Assembly (NCBI GenBank): GCA_026991395.1
Contig: JALXBP010000133.1
Location: 1-37,772 of the forward strand
Direction of reading: 5' to 3'
Source: Anaerolineae bacterium
GTDB lineage: Bacteria; Chloroflexota; Anaerolineae; B4-G1; SLSP01
Length of the DNA: 37,772 nucleotides
Each line of letters starts with the position of its first letter. The first letter of the stretch is position 1. Below, in pieces: positions 718 through 22,922 of this stretch. The notes under the pieces are model-generated. The model saw nothing but the letters and a program-made list of their open reading frames with translations. It was not told where the DNA came from and made no database searches. The translations under genes were made by a program, and so were the position numbers.

Positions 718-1236
718 CTACGGATCGGCGAGCCACACCGCCACGGTCGTCACCGCACCGACGGAGCCGGGCAGATCGAAGGGCTTGCTCGTGCCCAGCC
801 GCCGACCTCCACGGCCTGCACAGGCCACCCAGCGGAAAGGCCCCTTGCCCAGGTCGGCCTCGGCGACCCACCACCGCTTCCGGGCCGTGACCTCGCCACC
901 GTCCACGGTTACGTCGTCCGGCGTCCCTTGCCAGCCCTCGACGTCGTGCCACTCGCCCAGGCCATCCTGCCACTGGACGACGGTCCACACGCTCTGCCAA
1001 TGGGCCTCGTTCCAGGGCCAGGTGGCGGGGAAGTGCGCCTGCAACTCGATCGTCGCGCCGGGCGGAGCCGGGCGGCGCGGGTGCGGCGGCGCAGGGGTAG
1101 CCGTCGGTGTGGGGGTGGGGGGCCGTGGCGGAAGCGACGGTTGGGCCTGCGCCAGCCCCGGCAACAGGATGAGGAGGGTCAGCATGCCGAACCAGAGGGT
1201 CGGCAAGGGATGCGGATAGCGTCGGCTCCCGTTCAT
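718..1236 (-). CDS. 172-aa secreted protein with Pro/Thr linker, coupled to the giant gene
   Basis: The start chosen is ATG at 1236-1234, with GGAGG about 6 nt upstream, not the longer ORF in the track. The product starts MNGSRRYPHPLPTLWFG, has a hydrophobic core and ends the signal peptide with an AQA-type cleavage site near residue 31. A PPTPTPTATPAPP linker follows. The C-terminal ~120 residues form a Trp-rich beta-type domain (WPWNEAHWQ, WQDGLGEWHDVEGWQG, ARKRWWVAEADLGKGPF) with one Cys. I do not recognise the family. The W...G..W.DV..W pattern resembles a small secreted beta-sandwich or SH3-like unit, but that is only an impression. The start codon overlaps the giant's stop as ATGA, so the two are almost certainly translated together. 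It may be a partner or anchoring factor of the giant surface protein. Confidence 0.85.
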   Translation of the reverse strand: MNGSRRYPHPLPTLWFGMLTLLILLPGLAQAQPSLPPRPPTPTPTATPAPPHPRRPAPPGATIELQAHFPATWPWNEAHWQSVWTVVQWQDGLGEWHDVEGWQGTPDDVTVDGGEVTARKRWWVAEADLGKGPFRWVACAGRGGRRLGTSKPFDLPGSVGAVTTVAVWLADP

Positions 1237-7200: not shown

Positions 7201-10200
7201 TCCACGTAGATTCGGCAGGTGGTGCCGTCGAAGGTAACCGCCACGTGGTGCCACGCATGCTCGGTGAGGATGCTGCCGGTGGTGAAGGTCTCCCGGCTGC
7301 TGCCGTCGCCGAAGCCGACCTGCAAGGCGGTGCGGTTGACGACCCGCAGGAAGGGGTAGGCGTAGGGAGCCTCGCCGTAGGCCCCGCTGCCCAAGATGGG
7401 GTAGGCCCCGTCATCGGCGGGCGCGGGGTAGACCCAGGCCATCTGGGTGAAGCGGCCACCGCTCAGGTCGAGACCGGCGTCCGGGGCGACGCCGACGTAG
7501 TCGTCCGTGCCGTCGAAGGGCAGCGCGTAGGCTCCGACCGGGCCGGGCACGGCCTGTTTGGCGGGGTCGTCCGCGCCGATGTGCAGCGTGCCGTGGTGTT
7601 CCCAGCCGGAGACGTCCTCCAGGCGCGCGCCGTCGGCGGCCCAAGCGCTCTCGAAGGGCAGCCGCAGCAGCGGGCCGTCGCCCAAGTAGAGAGCCTCGAT
7701 CTCGTCGGCGGAGAGGGCGCGGTCGAAGAGGCGCACCTCGTCGATCCGCCCGGCAAAGGGTTCCTCGCCCCAGAGGTCCCGCCCGATGAGCAGGTCGTCG
7801 TCGGCATCGGGGTTGGCGGGGGCGCTTCCGGCGATGGTCTCGCGGGCCTCGCCGTCCACGTAGAAGGTAACGCTGTTGTCGGCACCCATCACGGCGGCGA
7901 CGTGGTGCCACCTCCCCGGCGTCAGCCCGACGTCCGTGGCCTCGTAATCCTGCACGCCGAAGGTGGCGAAGCGCAGACCGGCCCCGTCGAGGAAGAGGCC
8001 GAACCCGTCCGCGCTGTGCCAGCGCTCGGTGCCGATGATGCGCTGCACGCCGGTGAGCCGGTCGGGGTTGATCCAGGCCATCACGGTGAAGTCGTTGGTC
8101 AGCCGGTTGATGGCGCTCTTCCTGATCCAGACCCAATCGTCCAGCCCGTCGAAGCGGGCCGCGCTGCCCTCGTGGCCGGTCGCGCCGACGGTCGGACAGA
8201 GCGCGCCGTAGCACCACCCGTCGTTCCCCTCGCCGGAGATGTCGCGGAAGGTAACGTTGCCGTTGCGGTCCGGGGCGTCCTCGAAGGGGAGGTGGAGCAG
8301 TTCCCCGGCGGGCGCGGGTTCGTCGCAGAAGGGCGAGCCGGGCAGGGTGGACTCGAAGGCCGCCTCGACGCGGGAGAGACCGGCGACGGAGAGATCGGGG
8401 CAGGTGGCGGCATCGGCGACGAAGGAGACGGCCGTCCCGGCCCCGTAGTTCCCGTCCCACGCGGCGACCGTCGTGCCGCAGACCTGCACCGTGCCGGTTA
8501 CGCCGCCGTCTCCGCCGCCGTCGCTCAGGGTGATCCGGCAGGCCGCGCCCTGGTGGCCCCGTCCGTCCCAGGTGTAGGTCGTCCGCGAGGCGAAGGTGCC
8601 CTGCTCGACGCGGTAGAGCGTCGTCTCCAGGCACCTGATCTCGATGCCGGTCTCGTCGCCCGCGTCGTCGGTCGTCCAGGAGACGAGGAGGGGCACGGCC
8701 CGGTCGGTAACGTCGCCCCGCAGGGTAACCGTGCCGGTGAGGGTGGCCGTGGGGATGCCCGCCAGGTCGAGGTGGGCGGCGGGGGCGTCCGCGTCCACGT
8801 AGAGGGTCGCCAGATCGACGCCCGTCCGGTTGCCGACCCGGTCGGCAGCCTCGGCGTGGACGGTGTAGGGGCCGTTGGGCGCGCCGCCGGTGAAGAGGTA
8901 GGCCACGCTCCAAGTGCTCCCCGTTACCGTGGCGGCCTGCGTCCCCAGACCGGCGGGGGTGCCGTCGGGGGTGAGCAGCGTTACCCGCAGGCTGCCCTCG
9001 GCCAGACCGCTGCCGTCGTACCCGCCGGGGAGGGAGGGATCGCTTACCGTGCCGCTCAGGCGCACCATCCAGGCGTGCTCGATGGCGGGGTGCGGCACGG
9101 CGTCGAGGCGCGAGCCGTCGGCTGCGTCCAGCGTCAGCGCGGGGGGCGTGCCGTCCACGTAGAGGGTGTAGTCCTGCGGCGAGCGCTGCCGGTGGCCGAC
9201 GCGGTCCACGGCGCTGGCGCGCAGGGTGTAGCGCCCCTCGCCGGAGGGGGTGAAGGTGGGGCACCAGGCGGTGCCGTTCGGGGCATCCAGGCAGCGCGGG
9301 GCACTGACCCAGGTGAAGGCGCTCTGGCCCTCGCGGCGGAAGCCCAGGCCCACCTGCATCACCTCGGAGGTGGGGTCGATGGCCTCGACGTGCATCACCA
9401 CGTCCCGCTCGGCGCGGTAGTCTGGGCCGTCGGTGCGGATGGAGCGCAGGAGCGGCGTGGGGTCGTCGGCGTCCACGATGACGGGATGGCTCTGGCGGTC
9501 CTCGACCCACTTGCCCTGGTAGAGGAAGACCTCGCGCACCTGGCGGGGCGAGAGGGCGTAGTCGTAGAGCATAACCTCGTCGATGCGACCGGCGAAGGCG
9601 GTGAAGAAGGGATTCCACTCCCGCCCGATCTTGAGCGGGGCGTCGCTCTGGCAGACGGTGCTGGTAAGCGCCACGCTCCGATCCAGACTGCCGTTGATGT
9701 AGAGGTTGACCTGCTGCCCGTCGTAGGTCATCATCAGGTGGTTCCACTGGTTCAGGAGCAGTTCGCCGACGCTGTCGTAGGCCCGCCAGGTGCTGCAGTT
9801 GCCGGCCTGGAAGGAGAAGCGCACCTGGGTCGAGTCGGGCAGCAGCATCAGGCTGTAGTTGCGTTCACCGCCGTTGTCGTTCTCTTTGGCCAGGATGACC
9901 TGCCGCCCGCTCTTGAGTTGGGTGGGCATAACCCACGCGCCGACGCTGAAGGTGGTCACGTCCAGGGCCGGGTCGTCGGGGACGGTGATGACGTCGTCCA
10001 CGCCGTCGAAGCGGGGGGCCAGGCCGACCCGTCCCTGCGCGCCGACGGCGGGGCAGGCGGCGCTGTCGCCGCACGCGCCGTGATTGTCGTGGCCCGAATC
10101 GTCCCTGAAGAACGGCTCCCACCAGAACCGGGCCACGGCGTCGCCGGTGCGGTCGTAGTACTCCACCTCGAGGTGGTGGATGCCCTCGGAGAGGGTGCGG

Positions 10201-13200
10201 GTGGCCCGGTACTCGTGGAGCGTCTGGTCGAACCAGCGGTCGATGATGAGGCCGTCGTCCAGCCGGACGCGCATGCCGTCGTCGGTGCGGGCGATGAAGG
10301 TGTAGGTGCCGGCGTCGAAGTAGAAATCGCCGCTCCAGCGCGCGGAGAAGTCGTCGGGGCCGATGCCGCCGACGGGGCCGCCGGTGCCCCACTCGTGGTC
10401 GAGGGGCCAGGTGTCGCAACCGGTGAAGGCCGGATCGCCGCTCAGGTCGGCGTTGGCGTAGTATTCGCTCCGGAAGGCGCAGGCGGGCGTGGATTCGTCC
10501 AAGTGCATCTGGAAGCGGGGGGCGGCGTGGAAGAGGACCTGGACTTCGACGTCGGTCAGGGGGCGGTGGAAGAGGCGCACGTCGTCGATGCGGCCCTCGA
10601 AATAGTCGTGCCCGGCGTCCCTGGCGTAGCCGATGTTGACGCCGGTCTGCCGGTCGAAGTCGGAGGAGGCCTTGCTGCCGGAGGCGACCGGCGTGCCGTC
10701 CACGTAGAGCCGCTGTCCTCCCGCGATGCCGCCGAAGGTGTGCACCAGGTGGTGCCACTCGCCGTCGGCGTAGTTCCGACCGGAGGAGCAGATTCTCTCC
10801 TGGCTCCACAGCCGCGCGCAGAGGTCGCCGTTCCGCAGGTAGATGTCGCGGTCGTCGTCGTAGTCCCCGCCGCCCGGCGTGCCGCTGAAGGCGGAGAAGA
10901 TGCCGCAGTCGGGGCATCGGGTCCGGAACCAGAGGGAGAGGGCGTAGGCCCGCTCGGAGACGTCGATGTTGACCTGGATGTTGTCGTCCACGCCGTCGAA
11001 GAGGGCGGCCTGGTTGATGCGCCCGCTCACGCCTGCGGTGGGGCAACTTCCGCCGTCGGTGCTGTTCCAGGCGCAGATGCCGTCGCCCATACCGGCGACG
11101 TTGTCGAAACTGCTCGTGCCGGGGGCATCGTCGAGGGGCAGGTGCAGGCCGGTAGCTCCGGTCTGGTAGAGTTCCAGCACCTCGTCGGCGGTCAGCGTCC
11201 GCTTGTAGAGGCTCAGTTCATCGATCCGGCCCTGGAAGCGGATGGAGGGGTTCCGGTAATCCACCCAGACCGAGCCTTCCGAGTCGCCGGAGAAGGTCAT
11301 CGTGTACCATTGAGTGCCGTCCTTGTATTCCTGCGGGGTGTCGTTGGTGTCGAAGAGCCAGCCGCCGCCGTCGAGCGGGTCGTCGCCGTCGTCGGGAGCC
11401 GAGCCGCAGCGCTCGCCGCCGTCGTCCTCCCACATCCTCAACGTGCTATCGCCGTAGATGGTGCGTTCCACGTGCACGCCGTACCATCTGCCGTCGCCGT
11501 GATTGTCGTCTATGTCCCCCTGGTTGAATATCTCGCTCCCGTTCCAGGTCATACAGAGTTCGGCAGTGCCGACGCCGTCGTTCTCGTTGGTAACCTCGAT
11601 GCTGTCGATGTCGATGCGGGCCTGGTCGGTGGTGCGGCCGATGTAGAAGATGTACGGGAACGTGTTCGGCGCGGGCCGGTCGTTGCCCAGGTTCCACTCG
11701 TCGGTTCGCTGACCGTTGACGTAGAGCGTGGCGACGTTGCCGGTGAAGTTGCCGTCCGAGTCGTAGGAGGGGCCGAAGGTTACTGCCACGTGATTCCAGG
11801 CGTCGAGGGTGAGGACGTCGCCGCTGGTGCGCTGGACCCATCCGCTGCCGGTGCCGAAGCCGAAGCGGAGTTTGCGGCCCAGGCGCAGCAGGGAGGGGTA
11901 GGCGTAGGGATCGGCATGGGCGGGGTCGCTGCCGTCGGTCTTCCCGTAACCTTCGTAGCGGCCAAAGATGCCCTGGGCGTAGTCGCTGCCGGTATCGTGG
12001 CTGCCGGAATCGGGATAGAGCCAGAGCGCCAGCGTGAACAGGCCGTCGTCCAGGGAGAGGGTATCGTTGGGCACGACCGAGATGTAGCTGCGGCCGTCGA
12101 AGTGCGCGGCCTGGCCGTTCATCCCCGTGGCGCGACCGGGACAGGCCCCCGTGCAGCCGCCCACGCTGCCGAAGCCGGAGGCGTCCAGGAAGGCCGTCGC
12201 TCCGGGCGGCTCTTCGAAGTGCATCTCGAAGACGGGGCGGAGGTAGAGGGCGCGGATCTCCTGCGGGCTGAGGGGCCGAGCGAAGAGGCGCACGTCGTCG
12301 ATGTAGCCGTCGAAGCGATTGCCGCCGTAGGCGCGGCCCAAGTGGACCGTGTCCTTTCCCCGGAAGGGGGCGTGCCCCGTCTCGACGGCCGTGAGTTCGC
12401 CGTTGACGAAGATGGCCATCTCGCCGGTGGCCTCGTCGTAGCGGAAGACGAGGTGATACCACTCGCCGCTCGCCAGCGTGGTGTCGCTGCTCAGCGCGTT
12501 GTTGTAGAAGTTCATACGGGGATGACCGTTGCGGACGCCGAGGAACAGGCCCTCGTTCGTCGCCCGCCTGTCCGTGCCCATCACCGTCCTGCTGCCGGTG
12601 AAGTCGTCCCCCTTGACCCAGGCGGAGAGGGTGAAGCTGCCGTCGTCGAGGCCCAGCGTTTCGGCGTCGGGGAGGATGACGTACTTGTCGCCGCCGTCGA
12701 AGCGGAGGGCGTAGCCGAAGATGCCGGATTGCTGGCGGGCCGGGCAGTGGCTGGCGCTGCACGTGCCGTTGCGGGGCGGCAAGGCCCCGGAGTCGTCGAG
12801 GAAGGTGGTGGCACTTACCGCTTCGTCCAGGCGCAGCCACAGTTCGGCGAAGTTCGATTGCTCCTGCCGGTCGGTGACGAGCGCACCGGCCACCTGGGTC
12901 AGGTCCATCCGCGCCGAGGGGGCCTCCTCGCTCACCTGGACGTTGCCCGCCATCGTGGCCCGGCCCTGCGGTTCGAGGACGAAGGTGGTGAGCGGTACGT
13001 CGTCGGCGAGCAGGCCGGGGAAGTCGGTGCTCAGCAGGCCCTGGGCGTAGCGACCGGGCAGATTGTTCTCGACGGTGGCGCGGTAGTCCAGTTGCTCGCC
13101 GGGGCGGACGATGAGGTCGTTGGGGTTGTAGAGGCCGTCCCGAAGCCGTTGGACCTCGGCGTGCGAGAGGGCGTGGTCGAAGAGGGCGACCTCGTCGAGG

Positions 13201-16200
13201 GTGCCGACGAAGTAGAGGCCGACCTCGAAGACCCCGGCGGCGAGGTCTTGCGCCGGAGCCTGCGCCGAGTTGTCCAGCACGCCGTCGATGTAGAGTTCTC
13301 CCCTCCCGTCCGCTTCCCGGACGCCGACCAGGTGATGCCAGGTGCCGTCGTTGACGGCCCGGCGCGAGGTTACGCGGAAGCCGTAGCCTTCTGGGCCACG
13401 GGTGTACCAGAGGATGCGCCCGTCGTTCTGCATCTCCATCGCGTAGCCCGAATGCCCGTCGGGCGAGAACTGGTCCAGGATGTGGAGGCTGCCGTGATGG
13501 TCGGTCCTGACCCAGGCGGCTACGGAGAAGGGGCCGGGGCCGGAGATGGCGGTGTTGGCTTCCACCGGCTGCGGGCCGGAGCCGTCGAACTGCACGGCAT
13601 GGCCGTACCTGCCCGTCACGCCTGCGGCGGGACAGCCGTCGCTGCCGCACGAGCCGACGTTCCCGTAGCCGGACGAGTCGGCGAAGACGGTCGCGCCAGC
13701 CGGTTCCTCGAAGCGCAGCAGCAGGCGGGGGGCGTCGGCCTCCGAGACCTGCGAGGAGAGCGAGAGGACGTTGGGATTCGAATAGGCACGGGGATTGAAG
13801 CCGTAGGCCCTTTCCAGGAAGTCGGAGAGCGTGTCCCCGTCGGCGTCGGCGTCGAGGGGATCGGAGGTAACCCGGGTGGTGAGGGCGGAGCCGTCGGCGG
13901 CGAAGCCGTACACGATCTCCCAGCCTGCCACTTCCTCCCCGTCGGTCAGGCCGTCGCCGTCGGTGTCCGGACGGCGGGGGTCGGTCTCCAGCCGAAGCTC
14001 CTCGGCGTCGCTGAGGCCGTCGCCGTCGGTGTCGAAGAGGGTGGGGTCGCTGCCCACGTCGAGTTCGAAGCGATCCGAGAGGCCGTCGCCGTCGTCGTCC
14101 CACCGGCTGTCGTTGGGATCGGAGCCGTTGTCGGCAGGGTTGGGCAGGCCGTCGCCGTCGAAGTCCTTCTGGCGCGGGAAGACGAGGGGCAGGCCCAGGG
14201 TGTTCTCCACGTCGGCGTCCTGGCCCCAGGCCAGACTGTAGCCGCCGTCCTTGGGGACGGGGGTGTAGAAGTCGTCCAACGTGGCGGGGAAGATGTCGTA
14301 CTCGAGGTCCCGGCCCAGGTCGATGTGGTTCGTGGCCTTCTCCGTGCGGACGTAGCAGATCGGAGGGGTTCCGAGGGACCAGCATTCCTGGGCGGGGATG
14401 GCATACCCTTCGGCCAGATAGAGCCTCACCGTGCGGTTGATGCCCGGCTCGTCCAGCAGCACGCCGCTGCCGTCGGTGGCGACCCGGCGCACGATGAAGA
14501 CCTTCTTGCCGTCGGCGGGCGTCCAGTCCGTAACCTGCCGCCGGGAGAGGCTCTCGTGGATGTCCCATGCCTCGGTCTGGTAGGCGTAGCGGAAGGTCGA
14601 TGAGCGCAAGGTGCGCTGATTGTACTGCCAGGCGTAGATGGCGGCCTTCCAATCGAAGGGGAGCCTGGCGAGGCCGATGGTGGTGGTGACGGTAGCCTGA
14701 ATGGCGAGGGCGTTGCCCGCCGCGATGCCCTTCGCCGGATCGAGGACGTTCTGCCGGAACTCCTGGATGTCGAGGCGGTCGTCGGCTTCCATATCCACCA
14801 TGATGTTGCTGGAGTAGATGGACCACTTGACGACCTCGGAGATCAGCCCGCTGATGCCCTTGCAGAACCACCGGCCGACCTTGCCCTCCTCCCAGCCGAA
14901 GGCGGTGCAGAGGGCGAGGATCACGGCGTCTATCGCGGCGATGACGGCGGCGATGATCTGCCCGACGACGGGAATCAGCGAGATGGCGAACATGACGACG
15001 GCCGTGACGATGGTGGCGAGGGTCCCGGCCACCATTGCGTTGAAGGCCAGGCTGCCGATCGTAACGCCGCTCGCGGCCCACATAGTGATGAACGCTCCCA
15101 CGGCCACTACCGCGCCGACGATCAGCCCGATGATGCCGGCCTTCATACTGGACTCGCCGACCGTGTCGATGGCCTCGAGGCCCACGGCGAGGCGGCTCAC
15201 GTTCTGGAGGAATACCCGACCGTGCTCCACGACATCCTTGATCGCCATCCCCACGCTGACGACGGACAGGACGACGCCGAGCGCACGCCCGGCCGTCTTG
15301 CCTTGGGCGGCCAGCGCGACCGTTACCCCCACGGTGAGGATCGCGCCTGCGGCCAGCCCGCCGATCCTGGCCTTGCTCATACGGGAGAGCTTGGAGGTGA
15401 TGTTGCCTAACGTGGCCCTGATGGTGCTCCATCGCAGGGCGTGTCTCGTCATCTGCAGCGCCTCGCCGAGGTAGGCGTAGAGGGCGATCATCCTCCCCAT
15501 CGGCGTCTTCAGGTCGGCGGCCAGCCTCTGGAAGCCCGAATCCATCAATTCTCCCAATGTGTCTTCCAGGTACAGCAGATAGTCCTCGGCCAGGAAACTG
15601 ACGACGATCCCGATGCCGTTTCCGACCTCTTTGGCCAGTCGGCCCGTTTCCCGTGCCAGGGAGAGGTCTGCCTCGCTGGCGTCGAGGTCCCAGACGTGCT
15701 GTTCTCCGATGCGCACCATCTTCGTCACGCCTATGAACATGGCGAGATAGAAGGATCGGGCCAGCGCGGTCTGCCCGGCGGCCACGCGGACGCCCTGCAC
15801 GTCGGCGGGATCGCCCACCGGGAAGACCTCCTGGAGGCGCACCTGGAGGAGGTCCCAGTACTCGTCGATGGGATAGGACTCCCAGCGGCCGTCGCGGTAG
15901 CGGAAAGGTGCCCAACTCAGGAAGGTCATCGTCATCTCCGGCGCGCCGGTCGGCTCCGCATCGACGGCCAGACGGTCGCCATCGAGGGTGACCAGGCTGG
16001 CGTCGTCCAGGTTGACGCCGCGATACCGCTCCTCGCGGGCGAAGAGCAGGGTGGGGGCGCTCGCCAGCGGCTGACCGCCGTCCGTAAAGTAGGTATGCAG
16101 GACGTTGACCGTCTCGGTCATCATCACGGTGGCGATGTGATCCCGGTCGGGGTAGGAGAAGTTTTCGACCTGCATCGTCGCCGTCACGGGGATGCCCCAG

Positions 16201-18788
16201 CGGTCGGTGATGGTGGTGCCGGGGGCGATCTCGTCGGCGTCGAAGCGGTCGGCGATGGTCGTGTCGCCGTGCTGAGGGAGGATGCTCACGTCGCGGAGAC
16301 CGTTGCCGTCCTGGTCGCGTCCGGTGAGGAAGACAGTCTCCAGCCCGTTCGCCAGCAGCCACAGGTGATCGTCGAGGTTCGGGTTGTCGTCGCTGCGCGG
16401 GTCTTCGAAGGCGATGGCGACATCCATCCCGTGATCCTCGCGCACCTCCAGGCCGGTGAGGACCCATTCGTCGGGGTAGGTATGGACGGGCCGCTGCCGA
16501 TTCAGCACCCAGTTGGCGGCGTCATCGCACCAGGTGGCGGCCTCCTCCTCGCCCGTGCCGGGAGGGACGGGCTTGCAGGCGTCGGTGAGCATCATCACCA
16601 GCCAGACGACGCGCACCTGGTGGGCCACGCCCCAGCTATCCGAACGGGGCCAGTAGGCTATGCGGGCGGCGAAGGCTTCGCGCCCCCCGCCGGTCTCGTC
16701 GGCGACGATGTTCAGGGGGACGTAGACGAGGAGGGTGCCCTCGTCGTCCTTCTTGCGCACCGAGATGCCGTAGGCGTCCGTCCTCGCCTTGTCGAGCCAG
16801 TCGTCCACCTCGGCGTCCTTGTCCCGGATGGCGGGAGCGCCCGGCTTGACGGGCAGGTTGCCATAGCCGCCGTCGTAGGGGATGGTGATTTCGAGCATGG
16901 GGACCAGGCGCATATCGCCGTTCTCGTCGCCGGAAGAGGGCGTGTCGCCGTTGGCTGTGGCGACATCGGCGAAGGTGGCGTCGTTCCCCCTGCGGCGCTG
17001 AATCTGGCCCTCCTCGTCGCCGCTGGGCCAGTCCAGGACGTTCATCGCGTAGGTGAGGTGGGCGGCCTCGACGGGGCGGAGTTGCAGGTCCACCATGACG
17101 GGGTAGCCTGGTCGGAGGCCGTCCACCTGGAGTTCGAGGGCGCGGTCGGCGTCGAAAGGAGCGTCGGGGCTTCCCGCCTTCCCGGCGGGCGAAAGGTCCA
17201 CCCGGTCCGAGACGCCGTCGCCGTCGTCGTCCCGGTCGAAGAGATCGGGCGTGCTGTCGCCGTCGCTGTCCTTGTCGCAGGGCGTAGTGTAGGGCGGGGA
17301 ACCGGCGGGCGGGAAGGTGCTCCAGCACTCGTAGGTGTCCGCGATGCCGTCCCCGTTGCTGTCCGGATTGTTGGGGTCCGAGTACCAGCGCTGCCCGCTG
17401 CCGACGGGGTACTCGAACCCCCGGACCTCGGTGGCGTCCGAGATGGAGTCGCCGTCGGTGTCGGCGCTCTCCGGGTCGGTGCCCAGGATCATCTCTTGGG
17501 CGTAGGTGAGGCCGTCGTGGTCGGCGTCGCCGTCCGGGTCGGGAGCGGACGCACCTTCTAAAAGGAAGGAGGGGGAAGCGGCGAGAGGGAGGTCGGCGGG
17601 CGGCGTCGAGGGCCGCTCCTCGAGGGGATTGCGATGGGGGTCCCAGTCCGGTGCCCGGAGTGCCCGGAGCACATCGTCTTCCGCCTGGCTCTCCTCTTCG
17701 CGCCGTTCCTGCGCTTCCCGCTCGACCGCCAGGCGCTGCGAGAAGGCATAGACCTGCCGGCTCTGGAGCAGCGGCGCGACGACCATCGAGAAGAGGATCA
17801 CCAGCACGAGGAGGGCGTAGGTCCGCTTCGAGCGGCGGTGGGTGAGGAGCAGCCAGAGCAGGCCGACCATGCTCGCGGCCATGCTTCCCTGCCGGGCGGC
17901 CCGCTGCCGCTCGCGGGGTGAGCGCGGCAGGCCCGGCAAGCCCGTCAGCCGGGCGAGGGGGCTGCGGGCTTCGGGGAGCGGCCCGAAGTCCCAGAAGTCG
18001 GTCCGGATCTCCGCCTCGATCCGCTCGCCGCTGCGCTGCGGCGGATAGGCCAGATGGACGGTCAGGCGCAGGGGCAGGCCCCGCCCGTCGATCCAGACCT
18101 CGCCGTGGCCGGTGGCCCGGCGGAACTCGTCCGAGGCGGAGAGCGTGACCCCGGCGGGCAGTGCGCCTTCCTCCCGCAGGTAGTCCTCGAGCTGCCGCTG
18201 CAGGTAGTCGGCAAAGGCGGGGCCGTCCAGGTCGAAGCGGTAGCGGGTGAAGGTGATACCCCCGTCCCTGGCCTCTCCTCCCTCGGGGGAGGGGAGCGCG
18301 CGGGTCTCCGTGCCCGCCTCGCGCACGTTGGCCGCACCGGCCAGGTAGGCCATCAGGTCGCTGCCGGGGGCGAAGGCGTCGGTGAAGTCGTCGATCTCCT
18401 GCCAGGTCCCGCCGATGGGGCGACCGTAGGCGCTGTCGCCCTCGATGCGCACCTCGACGCCGTCCCGCCCGGTCAGGACGTTGCCGCCGTCCTTCCACAG
18501 GGTCAGGAGCAGCGTGCGGTCGGGCAGATCGGCCTGCCCTTCGAGGTGCAACGTCTCCCGGCGGCTGCTGTGGCCCACGTTGACCAGCGTCGGAGCGGGG
18601 TGGGTGGTCTGCACGATCTCGGTGGCGAAGTGGTAGGCCCCGCTCTCCTGAGCGCGTCGCCAGGCGTTTTGCACCGCTTGCGCCGGTAACGGCGTGGGTG
18701 CAGCCCGCGAGGAGGTGCCGAAAATCAGCATCAGCGAGAGGATGATGCCGAGGCATAGAGTCCCATACCTGTGCTGCTTCGTCTTCAT
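1233..18788 (-). CDS. Giant (5,851 aa) secreted multidomain surface protein: TSP3, LamG, PA14, LVIVD, Ig-like, P-domain
   Basis: The track starts at 18848, but ATG at 18788 is better: AGGGAG lies 5 nt upstream and a signal peptide begins there (MKTKQHRYGTLCLGIILSLM). Approximate residues: 30-290, LppX/LolA-like beta region; 320-340, a TM segment (YALLVLVILFSMVVAPLL); 418-530, thrombospondin-3 Ca-binding repeats (DTDGDSISD, DDDGDGVSD); 530-1140, an unassigned conserved-looking region; 1140-1330, a strongly hydrophobic region with several potential membrane helices; 1540-1660, a second TSP3 block; 1680-2760, four LamG-type domains; 2760-2900, PA14-like; 2900-3090, LamG; 3100-3480, Ig-like; 3490-4030, two LamG; 4170-4450, LVIVD beta-propeller repeats; 4480-4800, Ig-like; 4810-5020, CBM9/DOMON-like; 5050-5170, DUF11-like; 5370-5520, proprotein-convertase P-domain-like; 5660, VHLPMVAR; 5680-5800, CARDB-like. 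No catalytic domain is evident. A structural or adhesive cell-surface role is inferred. It follows the 72-aa gene and overlaps the 172-aa gene. Confidence 0.9.
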   Translation of the reverse strand: MKTKQHRYGTLCLGIILSLMLIFGTSSRAAPTPLPAQAVQNAWRRAQESGAYHFATEIVQTTHPAPTLVNVGHSSRRETLHLEGQADLPDRTLLLTLWKDGGNVLTGRDGVEVRIEGDSAYGRPIGGTWQEIDDFTDAFAPGSDLMAYLAGAANVREAGTETRALPSPEGGEARDGGITFTRYRFDLDGPAFADYLQRQLEDYLREEGALPAGVTLSASDEFRRATGHGEVWIDGRGLPLRLTVHLAYPPQRSGERIEAEIRTDFWDFGPLPEARSPLARLTGLPGLPRSPRERQRAARQGSMAASMVGLLWLLLTHRRSKRTYALLVLVILFSMVVAPLLQSRQVYAFSQRLAVEREAQERREEESQAEDDVLRALRAPDWDPHRNPLEERPSTPPADLPLAASPSFLLEGASAPDPDGDADHDGLTYAQEMILGTDPESADTDGDSISDATEVRGFEYPVGSGQRWYSDPNNPDSNGDGIADTYECWSTFPPAGSPPYTTPCDKDSDGDSTPDLFDRDDDGDGVSDRVDLSPAGKAGSPDAPFDADRALELQVDGLRPGYPVMVDLQLRPVEAAHLTYAMNVLDWPSGDEEGQIQRRRGNDATFADVATANGDTPSSGDENGDMRLVPMLEITIPYDGGYGNLPVKPGAPAIRDKDAEVDDWLDKARTDAYGISVRKKDDEGTLLVYVPLNIVADETGGGREAFAARIAYWPRSDSWGVAHQVRVVWLVMMLTDACKPVPPGTGEEEAATWCDDAANWVLNRQRPVHTYPDEWVLTGLEVREDHGMDVAIAFEDPRSDDNPNLDDHLWLLANGLETVFLTGRDQDGNGLRDVSILPQHGDTTIADRFDADEIAPGTTITDRWGIPVTATMQVENFSYPDRDHIATVMMTETVNVLHTYFTDGGQPLASAPTLLFAREERYRGVNLDDASLVTLDGDRLAVDAEPTGAPEMTMTFLSWAPFRYRDGRWESYPIDEYWDLLQVRLQEVFPVGDPADVQGVRVAAGQTALARSFYLAMFIGVTKMVRIGEQHVWDLDASEADLSLARETGRLAKEVGNGIGIVVSFLAEDYLLYLEDTLGELMDSGFQRLAADLKTPMGRMIALYAYLGEALQMTRHALRWSTIRATLGNITSKLSRMSKARIGGLAAGAILTVGVTVALAAQGKTAGRALGVVLSVVSVGMAIKDVVEHGRVFLQNVSRLAVGLEAIDTVGESSMKAGIIGLIVGAVVAVGAFITMWAASGVTIGSLAFNAMVAGTLATIVTAVVMFAISLIPVVGQIIAAVIAAIDAVILALCTAFGWEEGKVGRWFCKGISGLISEVVKWSIYSSNIMVDMEADDRLDIQEFRQNVLDPAKGIAAGNALAIQATVTTTIGLARLPFDWKAAIYAWQYNQRTLRSSTFRYAYQTEAWDIHESLSRRQVTDWTPADGKKVFIVRRVATDGSGVLLDEPGINRTVRLYLAEGYAIPAQECWSLGTPPICYVRTEKATNHIDLGRDLEYDIFPATLDDFYTPVPKDGGYSLAWGQDADVENTLGLPLVFPRQKDFDGDGLPNPADNGSDPNDSRWDDDGDGLSDRFELDVGSDPTLFDTDGDGLSDAEELRLETDPRRPDTDGDGLTDGEEVAGWEIVYGFAADGSALTTRVTSDPLDADADGDTLSDFLERAYGFNPRAYSNPNVLSLSSQVSEADAPRLLLRFEEPAGATVFADSSGYGNVGSCGSDGCPAAGVTGRYGHAVQFDGSGPQPVEANTAISGPGPFSVAAWVRTDHHGSLHILDQFSPDGHSGYAMEMQNDGRILWYTRGPEGYGFRVTSRRAVNDGTWHHLVGVREADGRGELYIDGVLDNSAQAPAQDLAAGVFEVGLYFVGTLDEVALFDHALSHAEVQRLRDGLYNPNDLIVRPGEQLDYRATVENNLPGRYAQGLLSTDFPGLLADDVPLTTFVLEPQGRATMAGNVQVSEEAPSARMDLTQVAGALVTDRQEQSNFAELWLRLDEAVSATTFLDDSGALPPRNGTCSASHCPARQQSGIFGYALRFDGGDKYVILPDAETLGLDDGSFTLSAWVKGDDFTGSRTVMGTDRRATNEGLFLGVRNGHPRMNFYNNALSSDTTLASGEWYHLVFRYDEATGEMAIFVNGELTAVETGHAPFRGKDTVHLGRAYGGNRFDGYIDDVRLFARPLSPQEIRALYLRPVFEMHFEEPPGATAFLDASGFGSVGGCTGACPGRATGMNGQAAHFDGRSYISVVPNDTLSLDDGLFTLALWLYPDSGSHDTGSDYAQGIFGRYEGYGKTDGSDPAHADPYAYPSLLRLGRKLRFGFGTGSGWVQRTSGDVLTLDAWNHVAVTFGPSYDSDGNFTGNVATLYVNGQRTDEWNLGNDRPAPNTFPYIFYIGRTTDQARIDIDSIEVTNENDGVGTAELCMTWNGSEIFNQGDIDDNHGDGRWYGVHVERTIYGDSTLRMWEDDGGERCGSAPDDGDDPLDGGGWLFDTNDTPQEYKDGTQWYTMTFSGDSEGSVWVDYRNPSIRFQGRIDELSLYKRTLTADEVLELYQTGATGLHLPLDDAPGTSSFDNVAGMGDGICAWNSTDGGSCPTAGVSGRINQAALFDGVDDNIQVNIDVSERAYALSLWFRTRCPDCGIFSAFSGTPGGGDYDDDRDIYLRNGDLCARLWSQERICSSGRNYADGEWHHLVHTFGGIAGGQRLYVDGTPVASGSKASSDFDRQTGVNIGYARDAGHDYFEGRIDDVRLFHRPLTDVEVQVLFHAAPRFQMHLDESTPACAFRSEYYANADLSGDPAFTGCDTWPLDHEWGTGGPVGGIGPDDFSARWSGDFYFDAGTYTFIARTDDGMRVRLDDGLIIDRWFDQTLHEYRATRTLSEGIHHLEVEYYDRTGDAVARFWWEPFFRDDSGHDNHGACGDSAACPAVGAQGRVGLAPRFDGVDDVITVPDDPALDVTTFSVGAWVMPTQLKSGRQVILAKENDNGGERNYSLMLLPDSTQVRFSFQAGNCSTWRAYDSVGELLLNQWNHLMMTYDGQQVNLYINGSLDRSVALTSTVCQSDAPLKIGREWNPFFTAFAGRIDEVMLYDYALSPRQVREVFLYQGKWVEDRQSHPVIVDADDPTPLLRSIRTDGPDYRAERDVVMHVEAIDPTSEVMQVGLGFRREGQSAFTWVSAPRCLDAPNGTAWCPTFTPSGEGRYTLRASAVDRVGHRQRSPQDYTLYVDGTPPALTLDAADGSRLDAVPHPAIEHAWMVRLSGTVSDPSLPGGYDGSGLAEGSLRVTLLTPDGTPAGLGTQAATVTGSTWSVAYLFTGGAPNGPYTVHAEAADRVGNRTGVDLATLYVDADAPAAHLDLAGIPTATLTGTVTLRGDVTDRAVPLLVSWTTDDAGDETGIEIRCLETTLYRVEQGTFASRTTYTWDGRGHQGAACRITLSDGGGDGGVTGTVQVCGTTVAAWDGNYGAGTAVSFVADAATCPDLSVAGLSRVEAAFESTLPGSPFCDEPAPAGELLHLPFEDAPDRNGNVTFRDISGEGNDGWCYGALCPTVGATGHEGSAARFDGLDDWVWIRKSAINRLTNDFTVMAWINPDRLTGVQRIIGTERWHSADGFGLFLDGAGLRFATFGVQDYEATDVGLTPGRWHHVAAVMGADNSVTFYVDGEARETIAGSAPANPDADDDLLIGRDLWGEEPFAGRIDEVRLFDRALSADEIEALYLGDGPLLRLPFESAWAADGARLEDVSGWEHHGTLHIGADDPAKQAVPGPVGAYALPFDGTDDYVGVAPDAGLDLSGGRFTQMAWVYPAPADDGAYPILGSGAYGEAPYAYPFLRVVNRTALQVGFGDGSSRETFTTGSILTEHAWHHVAVTFDGTTCRIYVDGVERAATDRFAGRTPYPTQRFDVGRDAVANTSCAVLTLQGIIPHPAWTPLYRVSVDGAAAYITPPWPAPNRELPIDRAITLCGPATLEVERAGWDPTTGRFVWSSLGTLALDTTLGTGSHTFADARTSATLRWDVTAAPDVLAYWQGRLDDVRIYPRALSEQEINALYQSRWRETTLVPAGGEVAEWSVTPPAGLEGSYRLDLRGRDAAGHVDNAVESRGVWRGEVDTLAPRLTMTRTIIGPYCRYTTVAQDFSLDAERFRTPCGVGVATERRHVRSPWYAALSGGTAETARPLDRLTAVCDLFPATLREVGALDTVGIAHAVAVSGTRAYVAAGERGLQVVDIADPGHPRPLGRFATTGRALDVAIVGSRAYLADETDGLVIVDVSDPAHPALLGGAETPEAHAVAVAGNYAYVADGGNGLIVLDLSTGFYAGIVPSLAPAYDVAVSGNYAYVVGDSAGLALVDVTDPASPAVVSSFDTPGDAVGVAISGTLACVADGPAGLRVIDVSNPLSPTEVGSYETPGYAEDVAIRGRYAYLADGLSGMPVIDIADPADPRFTDGLYTPGYARGVALSGGYACVAAWDYGLRVLSLSGVGGGTAACDPTGGEQATACDTAGNCTTVTLTATRQPLPATALPQAQSQPSLTVSILSVPPVLGSLAPVSVTGQAEAITSSLQALTVTVDAATLYTETWSGIVTGTYWSTDWAPSGEGEHRLRALITDREGNVATDTLTVTVDAQPPSVVITPTLLTTTHYHLPNTLDLSGRVTDTVGRPGVRVVVTGARRFEGSVDSASGPWVVPWYLGAGPLPDGETYTVTAQATDIAVHTAQATALVTVDVVPPAPVTLTLSSGGTPLAPGDTLRAVSPTLILTWTASSDGSGLADYLAEWTIRTTGTVTTTAAAYGPPVRQARYQARDGQKVSVQLTCRDVYGQQRAQRIGPVYVDGPATPDYVLLDDPDGLYDGWMESGCTRVGVDRRVSRNATGRAAMSAEQTFYVTWNEEALRLAWTGANWSTDGDLFIYLDIRAGGTITAFDPYSATMTDTRLYLPDATPLSPTVGMAADYLVWVRDSETALLLQWDGRAWAFERALSTSQYRFDPALRDGQTDLYLPFDLLGIADPASTPLNLVAFASEEDGLRLWAVMPNGNSVDSRRVIERPSDGAHEFALDHRYHWDGLGAGVCPNGSDGITAPYPDADLRLRLSVEPPGAVYHHLDDGLFDLWGLLPGERPNADVPPLGDGQVITYTLRYRNEGTDPATGVQVDLSAHDALRLTPGDDHRLVSLGDIAPGGEGTLVFRGVVDTGRSSAPRASVEARLYDDAHPSSGEPLEWIWADHRVDNESPRFLGIQEPTYRIAAGENRLIGYAYDDSGVPLVTVEVQGIGSFACPDETPEDGRWSCAWDTSSARDGQTLNLRLGATDTWGQESAWSAWQPFLVDARPPTVTFDVTATGIVSGSLLRAGTFALEGEVVDEGGVAGVELCADATCGPATLLTDAPAPPIVVREDVPPAPVAIDGTTTCGGGEIVRTFTVTESFPIGRVSVGFVAAHARRDDLRVTLESPTGASVRLLDDGIPGTDFRNADLFLDDAEPVGLGDLRGDQDPTAPYYERRARPREPLQAFRGETAAGTWTLRICDSNPSTDDGAYERSLLVLTPRSSAATSGRWTYRVIGDEPLDFVTETLALYGTDAVGNRTADPTTMLVIIDNVAPVITAMQVVSAVVYTPTLRVLEGTASDGGPTVYLRVDVRTPTGEFYSEPPERSGRTWRYDLHPPIAGRYLLWVTAADEAGNVTTAGPFEVELFPRPIVHLPMVAREHVPAPNLVVERIVATPDNVQVVIRNIGDRPVTDEFWVDLYLDPESAPTGVNQTWSLLGEQGVVWGVTADALPALTPGGRLTLTVGDAYYRAELSRIDRPLAEETQVWAQVDSANTATDYGAVQENHELLGGAYDNIRGPVDVVLHAAGVTSAALDGTTEHPAGDHLPPRPRGAPRGKEAR
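5430..6270 (-). repeat. LVIVD-type beta-propeller repeat block inside the giant protein
   Basis: At least six tandem units of about 45 residues carry the pattern A.DVA..G.YAYVAD...GL.V.DVSDP..P...G. Examples are GLQVVDIADPGHP, GLVIVDVSDPAHP and GLRVIDVSNPLSP. Such repeats normally fold into an extracellular beta-propeller. The repetition is visible at DNA level as recurrent tagGCGTAg-like strings on the plus strand. Confidence 0.85.
6700..13745 (-). repeat. Seven LamG/concanavalin-A-like modules (with embedded PA14 and Ig-like units) in the giant
   Basis: Each module opens with a LHL.F.E-type strand and D.SG..N.G, then C....CP..G..G, A..FDG.DD, FT..AWV, and W.H......G....YVDG. It closes with F.GRIDEV.LF.RALS..EI..LY. 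Closing signatures include YFVGTLDEVALF, YIDDVRLFARPLS, FQGRIDELSLY, FEGRIDDVRLF, FAGRIDEVMLY, FAGRIDEVRLF and WQGRLDDVRIY. Conserved Cys pairs near each N-terminus suggest disulphides outside the cell. A PA14-like unit (about 10,100-10,500) sits in front of the fifth module. Confidence 0.85.
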
Positions 18789-18793
18789 GGCCG

Positions 18794-18799
18794 CTCCCT
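18794..18799 (-). promoter_or_regulatory. Ribosome binding site deciding the giant's start
   Basis: AGGGAG on the minus strand lies 5 nt before the ATG at 18788-18786. The upstream ATG at 18848 used by the ORF track lies within the inverted repeat and would put 20 extra residues before the signal peptide. The 18788 start is preferred. Confidence 0.75.
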
Positions 18800-18843
18800 T
18801 TCCGTGAAACGATCCTTTGGGCCACGGCGGATAGCCGGTTTCG

Positions 18844-18883
18844 TCCATCGCGGCAGAGGGCGCGCCCGCTGCGCCGCGATGGA
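18844..18883 (-). promoter_or_regulatory. Inverted repeat in the leader between the 72-aa gene and the giant
   Basis: Perfect 11-bp arms TCCATCGCGGC (18844-18854) and GCCGCGATGGA (18873-18883) flank an 18-nt loop that itself contains GGGCGCGCCC. It begins 4 bp after the stop of the small gene and ends 55 bp before the giant's start. There is no T-run, so it is not a classical terminator. It could be an mRNA processing or stability element, or a partial terminator setting different expression of the two genes. Confidence 0.6.
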
Positions 18884-18887
18884 TGAC

Positions 18888-19106
18888 TCAGGCGTCGTCT
18901 TCACGATCCCCCTCTGACCGCACATCGCCGGTGATCTCGGCCTCTGTCTTCATGCGCAAAAAGGCCAGCAACTGCTCGATGTCGGCAAAGCCCCACCGTT
19001 CGCCCGTATGGGGGCTTTCCAGCGAGACCCGCCACAAGAGATGGCCTTCCCGCCTGACCTGCCACAAACGCAGCAGATAGGCCAGGTAGAGCGGCTTGTC
19101 GGTCAT
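18888..19106 (-). CDS. 72-aa conserved small protein (YLAYLLRLWQ...W..SLE.PHTGER.GF type)
   Basis: This is the true gene hidden at the end of the 733-aa track ORF. ATG is at 19106-19104, with AGGAGG 4 nt upstream. The sequence contains PLYLAYLLRLWQVRREG, LLWRVSLESPHTGERWGFAD and IEQLLAFLRMKTEAE. It has no signal peptide or membrane segment, so it is cytoplasmic. From memory, small proteins of this pattern recur in Chloroflexota genomes; their function is unknown to me. It is the first gene after the candidate SARP-controlled promoter and is followed by the giant gene after a 99-bp spacer containing an inverted repeat. It may be a small regulator or adaptor of the giant operon. Confidence 0.85.
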   Translation of the reverse strand: MTDKPLYLAYLLRLWQVRREGHLLWRVSLESPHTGERWGFADIEQLLAFLRMKTEAEITGDVRSEGDREDDA

Positions 19107-19148
19107 ACGGCCTCCTGCGACTCGTCCACAAGGCATCGAATTTCGCTC

Positions 19149-19181
19149 ATCATAACGGACGAACGTGGGGATAACGTGGGG
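19149..19181 (-). promoter_or_regulatory. Promoter with SARP-type direct repeats for the 72-aa/giant operon
   Basis: On the minus strand a -10 TATGAT (19154-19149, 5 of 6 matches) lies 43 nt before the start of the 72-aa gene. There is no good -35. In its place are two copies of CCCCACGTT (19181-19173 and 19170-19162) with an 11-bp period. Read as heptamers CCCACGT, they are separated by 4 bp, and the proximal one lies 8 bp from the -10. That is the described layout of SARP operators in actinobacteria. A SARP-family gene is transcribed divergently beside it. Confidence 0.6.
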
Positions 19182-19224
19182 AAGGGCGGCCTGCCTCGAT
19201 ACCGGCTTCCCAAAGTCGTCGAGG

Positions 19225-19253
19225 TTGAAAAGGAGACGCCGAGGGGGTATAAT
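19225..19253 (+). promoter_or_regulatory. Sigma70-type promoter of the SARP-like regulator
   Basis: TTGAAA (19225-19230), a 17-nt spacer and a perfect TATAAT (19248-19253). The predicted start near 19,260 gives a leader of about 117 nt before the ATG at 19,377. The promoter lies 44 bp from the direct repeats on the divergent side. Confidence 0.75.
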
Positions 19254-19376
19254 GTTCACAGGATCGGGTCTTTGATACGAGCTTGAAAGGAAGCGCCGTC
19301 TGGAACCCCTGCCCGATCGGATTTGCCGAGCACCGCTTTTTCGAGTCTTCCGAAGAGAGCCAACGCAAGTGTAGCT

Positions 19377-22300
19377 ATGAGCCGCCTCTCCTTGTGCCTT
19401 CTGGGAACCTTCCAGGCCACCCTCGACGGTCGGCCTGTGAAAGGCTTCGATTCCGACCGCGTGCGGGCACTGCTGGCCTACCTGTCGGTCGAGGCCGACC
19501 GGCCTCATCGCCGCGAGAGGCTGGCCGGGCTTTTGTGGCCGGAGCAGCCGGAGCAGGTCGCCCGCAGCAACCTGCGTTATGCTCTCTCGAACCTGCGGGG
19601 TGTGATCGGGGATCGCACCGCCTCGCCGCCTTTTTTGCGCATCACGCGCCACACCTTGCAGCTCAACCCCGAGGGCGACACGTGGGTGGATGTCGCCGCC
19701 TTCGTCCGGCACCTCTCCCTGGCAGAAGGAGCGCCGGATTCGGCATCCGTGGCCCATCTGGAAGAGGCGGTGGCCCTGTACCGGGGCGACTTCATGGCCG
19801 GCTTTTCGCTGAGCCACAGTGTGCTCTTCGAAGAATGGGTGCTCTTCACCCGCGAAGCCCTGGCCTGGAAGGCGGCGAATGCCCTGCGCCGCCTGATGGC
19901 CTGCGCGCAGCAGCGCGGCGATCTGCAGGCCGCCCAAAATCACGCCCGCCGCTTGCTGCAACTGGAACCCTGGCAGGAGGAGGTTCACCAGGCCCTGATG
20001 CGCCTGCTGGCGCTGGACGGGCAACGGGCGGCGGCGCTGGCGCAGTACGAAACCTGCCGCCGGGTGCTGGCGGAGGAACTGGGGGTCGAGCCTCTGCCGG
20101 AAACCGTCGCCCTGTACGAGCGCATCCGCGCCGGAGCGCTGGAAGGAGAAGCGGCCAGGCTCCACCGTCCCCCGGTAACCTTCTCCATCGCGAGGCTGGC
20201 CCCCGGCCTGACGGCGACGAGCCAGCCCTTTGTCGCCCGCGACGATGAACTGAATCGACTGCATCGGCTCCTGGAAGAGGTGCTGAGCGGCGAGGGGCGG
20301 GTGATGTTCGTCACCGGCGAGGCGGGGAGCGGCAAGACGGCCCTCATCCGCCGCTTCGTGGAGCAGGCGATGGCCCGGCATACGGGGCTTGTGGCAGCCT
20401 ACGGCCGGTGCGACGCCTTCACCGGCGCGGGCGACCCTTACCTGCCCTTCCGCGAAATCCTGCAGACGCTCACCGGCGACATCGAGACCCGGCGGGCCGG
20501 AGGCGAGATCGAGGCGGAGCACGCCCGGCGGCTGTGGTCCATCTGGCCGGAAGCCATCCGCGTCCTGCTGGAGGCCGGGCCGGACCTCGTTGACCTCTTC
20601 GTGCCGGGGGACGTGTTGGCCTACCGCGCCGAGATGTTCCTGCAGACGGACGGCATGGCCGACTGGGTCGGTCGGCGGGTCGCGCTCGCCAGGCAGCGCG
20701 CCGCTTCTGACGGGGTGCAGCCGCCTCAGAGGAATATCTTCCAGCAGGTGGCGCGTGTGCTGCAGACCCTCTCCGACTATTGCCCGCTGGTGCTGGTGCT
20801 GGACGATCTGCAATGGGCGGACAACACCTCGCTCGACCTCCTCTTCCATCTGAGCCGCGGGCTGACCGGCCACCGCATCCTCGTGCTGGGGGCCTACCGC
20901 TCCACCGATGTGGCGTCGGGCGGCGATGCTCGCTCCCCCCTGCCGGCCGTCGTCCACGAGATCGAGCGCCTCTTCGGCAACTGCCGCCTCGACCTGGACC
21001 GGGCGGATGGCCGACAACTGGTCGAAGCCTACCTGGACACCATCCCCAACCGCCTGGGGGCGACGTTCCGGGAGACCTTCCTGCGGCATACGGGCGGCAA
21101 TCCCCTCTTCGTGGTCGAGTTGCTGAGCAGCCTGCAGGCCGGGGGGAGCCTGGTCCGTGATGAGAGCGGCCGCTGGGTCGAGGCCCGGAGTATCCGCTGG
21201 CAGCGGTTACCGGCGCGGGTCGAGGCCGTCATCGCCGAGCGCATCGGACGGCTGCCGTCCGCCTGGCAGGCGCTGCTGCGCGTCGCGGCGGTCGAGGGGG
21301 AGGCATTTACCGCCGAAGTCGTGGCCCGCGTCCGGGGGGAAACGCCGCAGAAGGTCATCCAGACGCTGAGCGAAGACCTCGGCAGGCGTCATCGGTTGGT
21401 GCGGCCCACCCGTCTGCAGTGGTCCGAGCACGGTGTGCCGCGCCTTTCCCGTTATCGCTTCCGGCACAGCCTCTTTCAGCGGTACCTGTATGACCGGCTG
21501 GACGAGCCGGAGCGGGCCGCGCTGCATCGGGCGGTGGGCGAAGCGCTGGAGCACCTGTACGCCGACGCCAACCTCGAAACGACGGAGATCTGGCCGCGGC
21601 TGGCCTATCATTTCGAGGCGGCGGGGGTGCCGGACAAGGCCGTCGGCTATCTGCTCAAGGCCGGGGAGCGCGCCGCCCAAATGTCGGCTTACGGCGAGGC
21701 GATGACGCTGTTCAGCCGAGGGCTGGCGCTGCTCGAAGCGCTGCCCGATACGCCCGAACGTGCGCAGCAGGAGCTGGAGTTGCGCTTGGCGCTGAGCGGC
21801 CCCTTGCTGGTCATGCGCGGCTGGGGGGCCGACGAACGCGCCCGCGCCGCCGCGCGGGTCATCGAGTTGTGCCGACGCGCCGGAAACGAGACCCAGTTGC
21901 TGCGTGCCTTGTTCCTCCAGGCCGATATGCTGCGGGCGATCGGGCACCACAGGGAGGCCCTGCCCGTTGCGGAGCAGTACCTGGACCTGGCCCAGGCGAG
22001 TCAGGCTCCCGCCCAGATCGGGCTGGCACACTGGAGCCTGGGCGAAACGCACTTCCTCATGGGAAACCTGACGGCGGCCCGCAGGCATATGGAACGGGTC
22101 GTTGCCCTCTACGACGCGCGGCAAAATCGGGCGCTGCTGGCTTTGACCGGCGTCGATCCAACGGTGGCCTCTTCGAGTTGGCTTGCCTGGACGCTGTGGA
22201 TGCTGGGATACCCGGAGCAGGCCCTGGCCTATAGCAAGCAGGCGCTGGCGGCGGCCCGCGATCTGGATCACCCTCTCTCGACGGTCTTTGCCCTGACCTT

Positions 22301-22922
22301 TGCCGGTTGCGGCCTGGGCCATCTGTGCCGCCGACCTCAGGCGGTGGAGGAGGCGCTGAGGGCGATGGCGCAGCTCACGGACGACGAGATCGCCAGCATG
22401 CGAGCCTGGAGGCGGGTCTTCCAGGGGTGGGCGAGCGTAACGCGCGGGCAGGTCGAGGAGGGGATCGAAGCCCTGCGTGCGGGGATGGAGGCATGGCGGG
22501 CGATGAAGGCCGTCAGCGGCCTTTCCTACCAATCGCTCCTTCTGATAGAGGCATACGCGCGGAGCGGACGAGTCGAGGACGGCCTCTCGCTGGCCGCCCA
22601 GGTGCTGGCAGGGATGGAAGAGACCGATGAGCGCCTGGTCGAGGCGGAGGTCCATCGGCTCCGGGGGGAACTCGAACGGCTCCGGGGGCGGCAGGCCGAA
22701 GCGGAGGCCTGCTTTCTCGAGGCCATCGAGGTGGCGCGTCGGCAGCAGGCCAGATCGTGGGAGATGCGGGCCACGATGAGCCTGGCCGCATTGTGGCGTC
22801 GCACGGCCAGGCGTCGAAGGGCACGGGCTATGCTGCGCGACCTCTACGCCTGGTTCACCGAGGGCCTGGAGACGCCGGACCTGCAAGAGGCCGGGCGGCT
22901 CTTGCAGGCCTTGCGCTCGTAG
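19377..22922 (+). CDS. SARP/AfsR-like transcriptional activator: winged helix, BTAD, AAA/STAND ATPase, TPR
   Basis: The start chosen is ATG 19377 (MSRLSLCLLGTFQATLDGRP), because SARP proteins typically begin with this LxLLGxF strand. The track start at 19323 adds 18 residues without family support. Length is 1,181 aa. Approximate residues: 1-90, OmpR-like winged helix; 95-245, bacterial transcriptional activation (BTAD) helical repeats (EAVALYRGDFMAGF, EALAWKAANALRRLM, LLQLEPWQEEVHQALMRL); 280-640, STAND-type ATPase with P-loop GEAGSGKT (~314) and Walker B LVLVLDDLQWAD (~472); 740-1181, TPR-type helices. This architecture belongs to large ATP-dependent SARP regulators that bind direct repeats near -10 boxes. 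It has its own promoter and lies divergent to the giant operon, its probable target. The inducing signal is unknown. It has no C-terminal LuxR helix-turn-helix. Confidence 0.92.
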   Translation: MSRLSLCLLGTFQATLDGRPVKGFDSDRVRALLAYLSVEADRPHRRERLAGLLWPEQPEQVARSNLRYALSNLRGVIGDRTASPPFLRITRHTLQLNPEGDTWVDVAAFVRHLSLAEGAPDSASVAHLEEAVALYRGDFMAGFSLSHSVLFEEWVLFTREALAWKAANALRRLMACAQQRGDLQAAQNHARRLLQLEPWQEEVHQALMRLLALDGQRAAALAQYETCRRVLAEELGVEPLPETVALYERIRAGALEGEAARLHRPPVTFSIARLAPGLTATSQPFVARDDELNRLHRLLEEVLSGEGRVMFVTGEAGSGKTALIRRFVEQAMARHTGLVAAYGRCDAFTGAGDPYLPFREILQTLTGDIETRRAGGEIEAEHARRLWSIWPEAIRVLLEAGPDLVDLFVPGDVLAYRAEMFLQTDGMADWVGRRVALARQRAASDGVQPPQRNIFQQVARVLQTLSDYCPLVLVLDDLQWADNTSLDLLFHLSRGLTGHRILVLGAYRSTDVASGGDARSPLPAVVHEIERLFGNCRLDLDRADGRQLVEAYLDTIPNRLGATFRETFLRHTGGNPLFVVELLSSLQAGGSLVRDESGRWVEARSIRWQRLPARVEAVIAERIGRLPSAWQALLRVAAVEGEAFTAEVVARVRGETPQKVIQTLSEDLGRRHRLVRPTRLQWSEHGVPRLSRYRFRHSLFQRYLYDRLDEPERAALHRAVGEALEHLYADANLETTEIWPRLAYHFEAAGVPDKAVGYLLKAGERAAQMSAYGEAMTLFSRGLALLEALPDTPERAQQELELRLALSGPLLVMRGWGADERARAAARVIELCRRAGNETQLLRALFLQADMLRAIGHHREALPVAEQYLDLAQASQAPAQIGLAHWSLGETHFLMGNLTAARRHMERVVALYDARQNRALLALTGVDPTVASSSWLAWTLWMLGYPEQALAYSKQALAAARDLDHPLSTVFALTFAGCGLGHLCRRPQAVEEALRAMAQLTDDEIASMRAWRRVFQGWASVTRGQVEEGIEALRAGMEAWRAMKAVSGLSYQSLLLIEAYARSGRVEDGLSLAAQVLAGMEETDERLVEAEVHRLRGELERLRGRQAEAEACFLEAIEVARRQQARSWEMRATMSLAALWRRTARRRRARAMLRDLYAWFTEGLETPDLQEAGRLLQALRS

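Follow-up and report, generated by a model that had tools for sequence, protein, structure and literature searches.

The question raised by this locus is which protein reads a pair of direct repeats lying between two divergent genes, and which genes it would switch on. The site is located between a regulator gene (19377..22922, + strand) and a gene encoding a protein of 72 aa (18888..19106, − strand) in the window, i.e. the whole 37.8-kb stretch of DNA that was analysed. The first-pass annotation had described the regulator as a SARP/BTAD ATPase, and Pfam confirms this with matches to Trans_reg_C (7e-7, 29.6 bits for a cut-off of 26.2), BTAD (3e-24), AAA_16 and TPR. The protein is a large SARP: it carries the N-terminal OmpR-type winged helix followed by BTAD that characterises the class, and its PDB relatives are EmbR (9e-14) and AfsR (8e-8). 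No receiver domain was found in it by Pfam. Its ATPase/TPR part (residues 449-1137, window 19825-22790) also resembles the TOMM kinase/cyclase fusion family TIGR03903 with a score of 220 bits, far below the cut-off.

The candidate operator (19162..19181, − strand) consists of two units, CCCCACGTT AT CCCCACGTT, whose exact 9-mer copies occupy 19181-19173 and 19170-19162. The 11-bp period claimed in the first-pass annotation is therefore exact. The spacer CGTCCGT, 7 nt long, separates the second copy from a predicted −10 element, TATGAT (19149..19154, − strand). This element was said to lack a −35, which holds: a scan of the − strand from 18600 to 19500 detected no sigma-70-like promoter. The distance of 8 bp proposed between heptamers and −10 depends on the register. 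It is correct if the heptamer is read as CCCACGT, while the 9-mer ends 7 nt away and the exact 7-mer most conserved across relatives (here CCCCACG) ends 9 nt away. Since gaps of 7-9 nt are obtained according to register, the spacing in the window equals within one base the published SARP rule, in which the 3' repeat lies about 8 bp from the −10 (PMC10936776). The SARP gene itself has a separate sigma-70-like promoter, TTGAAA-17-TATAAT (19225..19253, + strand). Similar promoters exist in relatives, where this type is found on the SARP strand in 31/75 loci versus 5 on the opposite strand.

We analysed the conservation of this geometry in two sets of loci. For the first, 400 bp were taken in front of each of 76 SARP/BTAD genes from related genomes, probably Chloroflexota of the class Anaerolineae judging from named relatives of that class, and 9-mer repeats were called with at most one mismatch. 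Repeats of period 11 are present at 43 of the 76 loci, the other periods at 0-9 loci, except the multiples 22 and 33 (11 and 10 loci). In control stretches 1,000-1,400 bp upstream, period-11 repeats appear in 4/65. When TAnnnT was required as a −10 at a fixed gap after the repeat, period 11 gave 18, 21 and 19 loci at gaps of 7, 8 and 9 nt, while periods 8, 9, 10 and 13 gave none at those gaps and periods 12 and 14 at most one. This peak is limited to the strand that runs divergently from the SARP gene; the SARP strand displays no peak at 7-9 nt (1-3 loci). With exact 7-mers of period 11 the gap peaks at 9 nt (25 loci), and most aligned sites have 9 nt between the end of ACG (or its equivalent) and the −10. 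In 34/36 loci the sequence before the operator −10 agrees with a −35 at only 1-2 of its 6 positions.

The second set comprises 100 loci found through the family of the 72-aa protein. A divergent SARP N-terminus lies upstream in 70 of them, and among the 98 scored for repeats 52 have period 11, with the same gap peak (other periods, 1-22). The two sets come from the same group of genomes and hence are not fully independent. About half of the loci have no repeat by these criteria, some of them with both the SARP and the small gene present (e.g. L205). The arrangement recurs nevertheless at orthologous positions in relatives. Three close orthologues (L038, L039 and L040) have about four repeat units, versus two in the window, in the same register to the −10.

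While the geometry is constant, the letters of the repeats vary by locus (TGACG, TCACG, CCACG, TACG, GAACG, TGATA). For 67 operators, called solely on periodicity and −10, we set the letters against the adjacent SARP N-terminus, after shifting the sites of L067 and L150 by 2 nt to the common register. Over all columns the highest mutual information links R67 to positions 8 and 9 of the unit, Y68 to position 5 and N72 to position 4 (z of 23, 21, 14 and 11 respectively); the next pairs are S26 with position 3 and S64 with positions 5 and 6. R67 goes with ACG, S67 with ATA, AGA or AGG, and Y/F68, which includes the window SARP, with [CG]CACG. Ignoring relatedness, CG at positions 8-9 is absent in 11/11 S67 proteins and present in 54/56 others (Fisher 6e-11), and [CG]CA at positions 5-7 is found with all 6 Y/F68 proteins, the window one among them, and with no others (1e-8). 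The codons of recognition-helix residues 63-76 (RSNLRYALSNLRGV; 19563..19604, + strand) would thus encode the proposed reader of the repeats.

The distance between operators follows the distance between recognition helices once the rest of the domain is removed (partial r 0.60, p 0.0005), with a set of helix residues partly derived from the covariation result. Residues chosen from AfsR alone give r 0.54 (p 0.001) and buried helix residues 0.16. The remainder of the domain contributes little (0.10), and none of 300 random six-column sets exceeds 0.30. When the helix is left out, the tree requires at least six changes between R67 and S67. It is weakly resolved, so that the formally independent switches of helix and letters are few: a single pair of such changes falls on well-supported branches, agreeing in nearly all pairings.

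Further loci were obtained from a scan with the ortholog alignment A3 (80 loci); a scan with the window SARP sequence alone found no relative. TGACG with TATGAT is found at L255 (RQ), CCTGACG at L264 (RQ) and GGGAACG at L260 (RR). At L250 four GGGCG-type units are correctly spaced, the letters not being those expected from RN, and two held-out loci, L249 and L251, depart from what the helix would predict. L246 (RY, CCACG) lies on the same contig as G059; it repeats a known case and adds no new locus.

Residues 26, 67, 68, 71, 72 and 74 of the window SARP align with S46, R87, T88, S91, R92 and R94 of AfsR (PDB 8hvr), the AfsR numbering being fixed by the residues named in PMC10936776. The AfsR initiation complex has T88 and R92 in contact with bases at −36 and −38, S46 and R87 with phosphates (PMC10936776). 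Thus the covarying columns are largely DNA-contacting residues. The base offsets also agree with this complex, assuming that the −10 begins at −12. Reading of the repeats by a SARP recognition helix is in this way indicated indirectly, by covariation and structural alignment. Together with the geometry and its conservation beside SARP genes, which like the covariation were established computationally, this makes the CCCCACGTT repeats very probably the docking site of the SARP encoded next door, and we strongly infer that this protein physically binds them. The SARP-type operator predicted at first reading is upheld by the geometry kept at SARP loci and by letters that covary with the adjacent SARP; its motif, however, is not the classical TCGAG.

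A search of the own genome for the same repeat pair, proposed in the first-pass annotation as a check, found the site exactly once. No second CCCACGT pair with TAnnnT was detected there at up to 2 mismatches, and for this reason the window SARP looks dedicated to its neighbouring operator. A wider regulon in this genome was considered and rejected: the site occurs once, and matches at 3 mismatches occur at the rate of the reversed control. The same genome encodes a SARP paralogue on contig C27, with the helix NLRRALWNLR and a small-protein gene divergently adjoining. Its operator reads TTCAACG-gtgc-TTCAACG, then 9 nt, then AACAAT; L220, which has a helix similar to that of this paralogue, has TCAACG units. 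With another helix and another repeat on C27, two different regulator-operator pairs appear to coexist in this genome. A further copy of the small protein is found on contig C73 (23402-23593), with no repeats found upstream and no obvious SARP adjoining.

The 72-aa gene is the first downstream of the operator and is preceded by a ribosome-binding site, AGGAGG (19111..19116, − strand). Its family (about 60-90 aa; motif YLLRLW...WRASLE..TGER..FA.L..L..FL) is present in 168/298 genomes of the class with up to 16 copies each, and is strongly tied to divergent SARP genes, a secreted protein often coming next. The protein is predicted to adopt a beta-beta-beta-alpha fold (pLDDT about 95-97 in residues 11-50); it has no match in Pfam or NCBIfam, and the fold search against PDB gave no significant match. 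Beyond its stop, 99 bp precede the likely start (MKTKQH, 18788) of a giant, predicted secreted protein (1233..18788, − strand) with LamG, TSP3, PA14, LVIVD, P-proprotein and Ig-like domains. From this gap, the lack of a promoter found in it and the gene order in relatives, in some of which giant homologues follow the small gene, the giant would be transcribed together with the 72-aa gene from the operator promoter.

The reading that best accounts for the whole, and in which we have high confidence, is that of a dedicated SARP operator which would activate both the 72-aa gene and the secreted giant behind it. Two SARP monomers would sit side by side on the same face of the DNA, one per 11-bp unit, and take the place of a −35 element. 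They would bring sigma-70 RNA polymerase to TATGAT, turning on the 72-aa gene and then, through read-through, the giant. The SARP itself would be made from its separate promoter and presumably kept inactive by its ATPase and TPR parts until a signal is perceived. Position, gene order and the example of AfsR suggest that the SARP activates transcription, that the giant is cotranscribed and that a signal controls the SARP; the inducible expression of the giant proposed at first reading would likewise follow from the ATPase/TPR architecture and from AfsR.

A repeat arising by chance, or as a general feature of GC-rich sequence, was considered for the operator. Indeed 0.6 period-11 9-mer repeats are expected anywhere in a sequence of the size of the window, where the CCCCACGTT pair is the sole exact one (in two overlapping registers). 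But among Markov-simulated 270-bp intergenic regions 0.17% contain a period-11 repeat, and none of 20,000 such regions or of 200 simulated windows holds repeats and −10 in the full arrangement. With its recurrence at orthologous positions, this leads us to reject chance, whose likelihood we regard as negligible. The repeats could also be bound by another regulator of the OmpR/PhoB type. The pho box is made of 11-bp direct repeats replacing the −35, with the same period and promoter position, and is read by the winged helix of a response regulator. Here, however, the repeats adjoin SARP genes and their letters follow the recognition helix of that SARP, while in the adjacent reader Pfam finds BTAD but no receiver domain. 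The covariation thus disfavours another PhoB-like reader, which we hold to be very improbable.

If the SARP is the reader, it might bind mainly to control its own gene, as autoregulator or repressor, rather than the 72-aa gene. The close orthologues L004 and L005, in which the repeats lie directly against the SARP promoter at its −35, speak for such a role; but it is the divergent −10, not the SARP promoter, to which the spacing is fixed, and 44 bp separate the end of the repeat in the window from the SARP −35, which is intact, so that we consider it unlikely. A somewhat more serious alternative, although still rather unlikely, is that the operator drives the 72-aa gene only and that the giant has its own promoter, for which the 99-bp gap leaves room and which the scan would miss if it were of another type. 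Against this, the scan found no match to a − strand promoter or terminator in the gap, and homologues of the giant N-terminus lie at SARP or small-gene loci in six cases among relatives (L044, L182, L205, L206, L236 and L101). Moreover, the ORF following the small gene has a hydrophobic N-terminus in 65/89 loci versus 7/86 internal controls, a count somewhat favoured by the choice among alternative starts.

Most of what is known about SARPs concerns the activation of antibiotic synthesis in Streptomyces. The classical small ones (DnrI, ActII-ORF4, RedD) act on TCGAG heptamers whose period is 11 or 22 bp and which lie about 8 bp from the −10 of promoters with a poor −35. The window shares the direct repeats of 11-bp period, the distance and the absent −35, but has no TCGAG motif (its units are CCCCACG), a regulator with ATPase and TPR parts, and belongs to a different phylum. 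In the afs box of the afsS promoter of Streptomyces coelicolor, read by AfsR, two 11-bp direct repeats cover the −35 position of a sigma-70-type promoter (PMC10936776). Like the window regulator, AfsR is a large SARP with a winged helix, a BTA domain, nucleotide-binding and TPR parts, and equivalent recognition-helix residues (PMC10936776). In contrast to AfsR, which reads other letters and targets a regulator of antibiotic synthesis, the window operator adjoins the SARP gene, and the genes it precedes encode a small protein and a secreted giant. PimR and other SARP-LAL regulators bind CGGCAAG heptamers repeated directly with 4-bp spacers, at least two repeats being needed (PMC5930380). PimR also combines a SARP domain with an ATPase region, and has a dedicated operator between divergent regulator and target; its main operator, unlike that of the window, does not overlap a −35 box, has other letters and controls polyene synthesis (PMC5930380).

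A non-exhaustive search found no paper on SARP operators in this phylum. It appears that secreted and giant surface proteins are controlled via dedicated operators by a large family of SARPs, from bacteria that are Chloroflexota-like and mostly uncultured. As the letters are partly predictable from the helix, one could predict the target sites of many regulators that are still uncharacterised; the family would also provide natural, probably orthogonal, regulator-operator pairs, and a small conserved protein family gains a regulatory context. A group-wide signalling module is a possible but doubtful extension: each large SARP would have its own divergent operator, with letters readable from few helix residues, and would control a secreted or surface protein with the adjacent small beta-beta-beta-alpha protein as its partner, acting as feedback modulator or signal relay. 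If so, many insulated copies could run in one cell.

The next gene beyond that of the SARP (23038-26133) encodes a NACHT NTPase fused with an FGE-sulfatase domain, and at 27908-29836 the window encodes a Proton_antipo_M protein of the NADH:quinone oxidoreductase/Mrp antiporter type.
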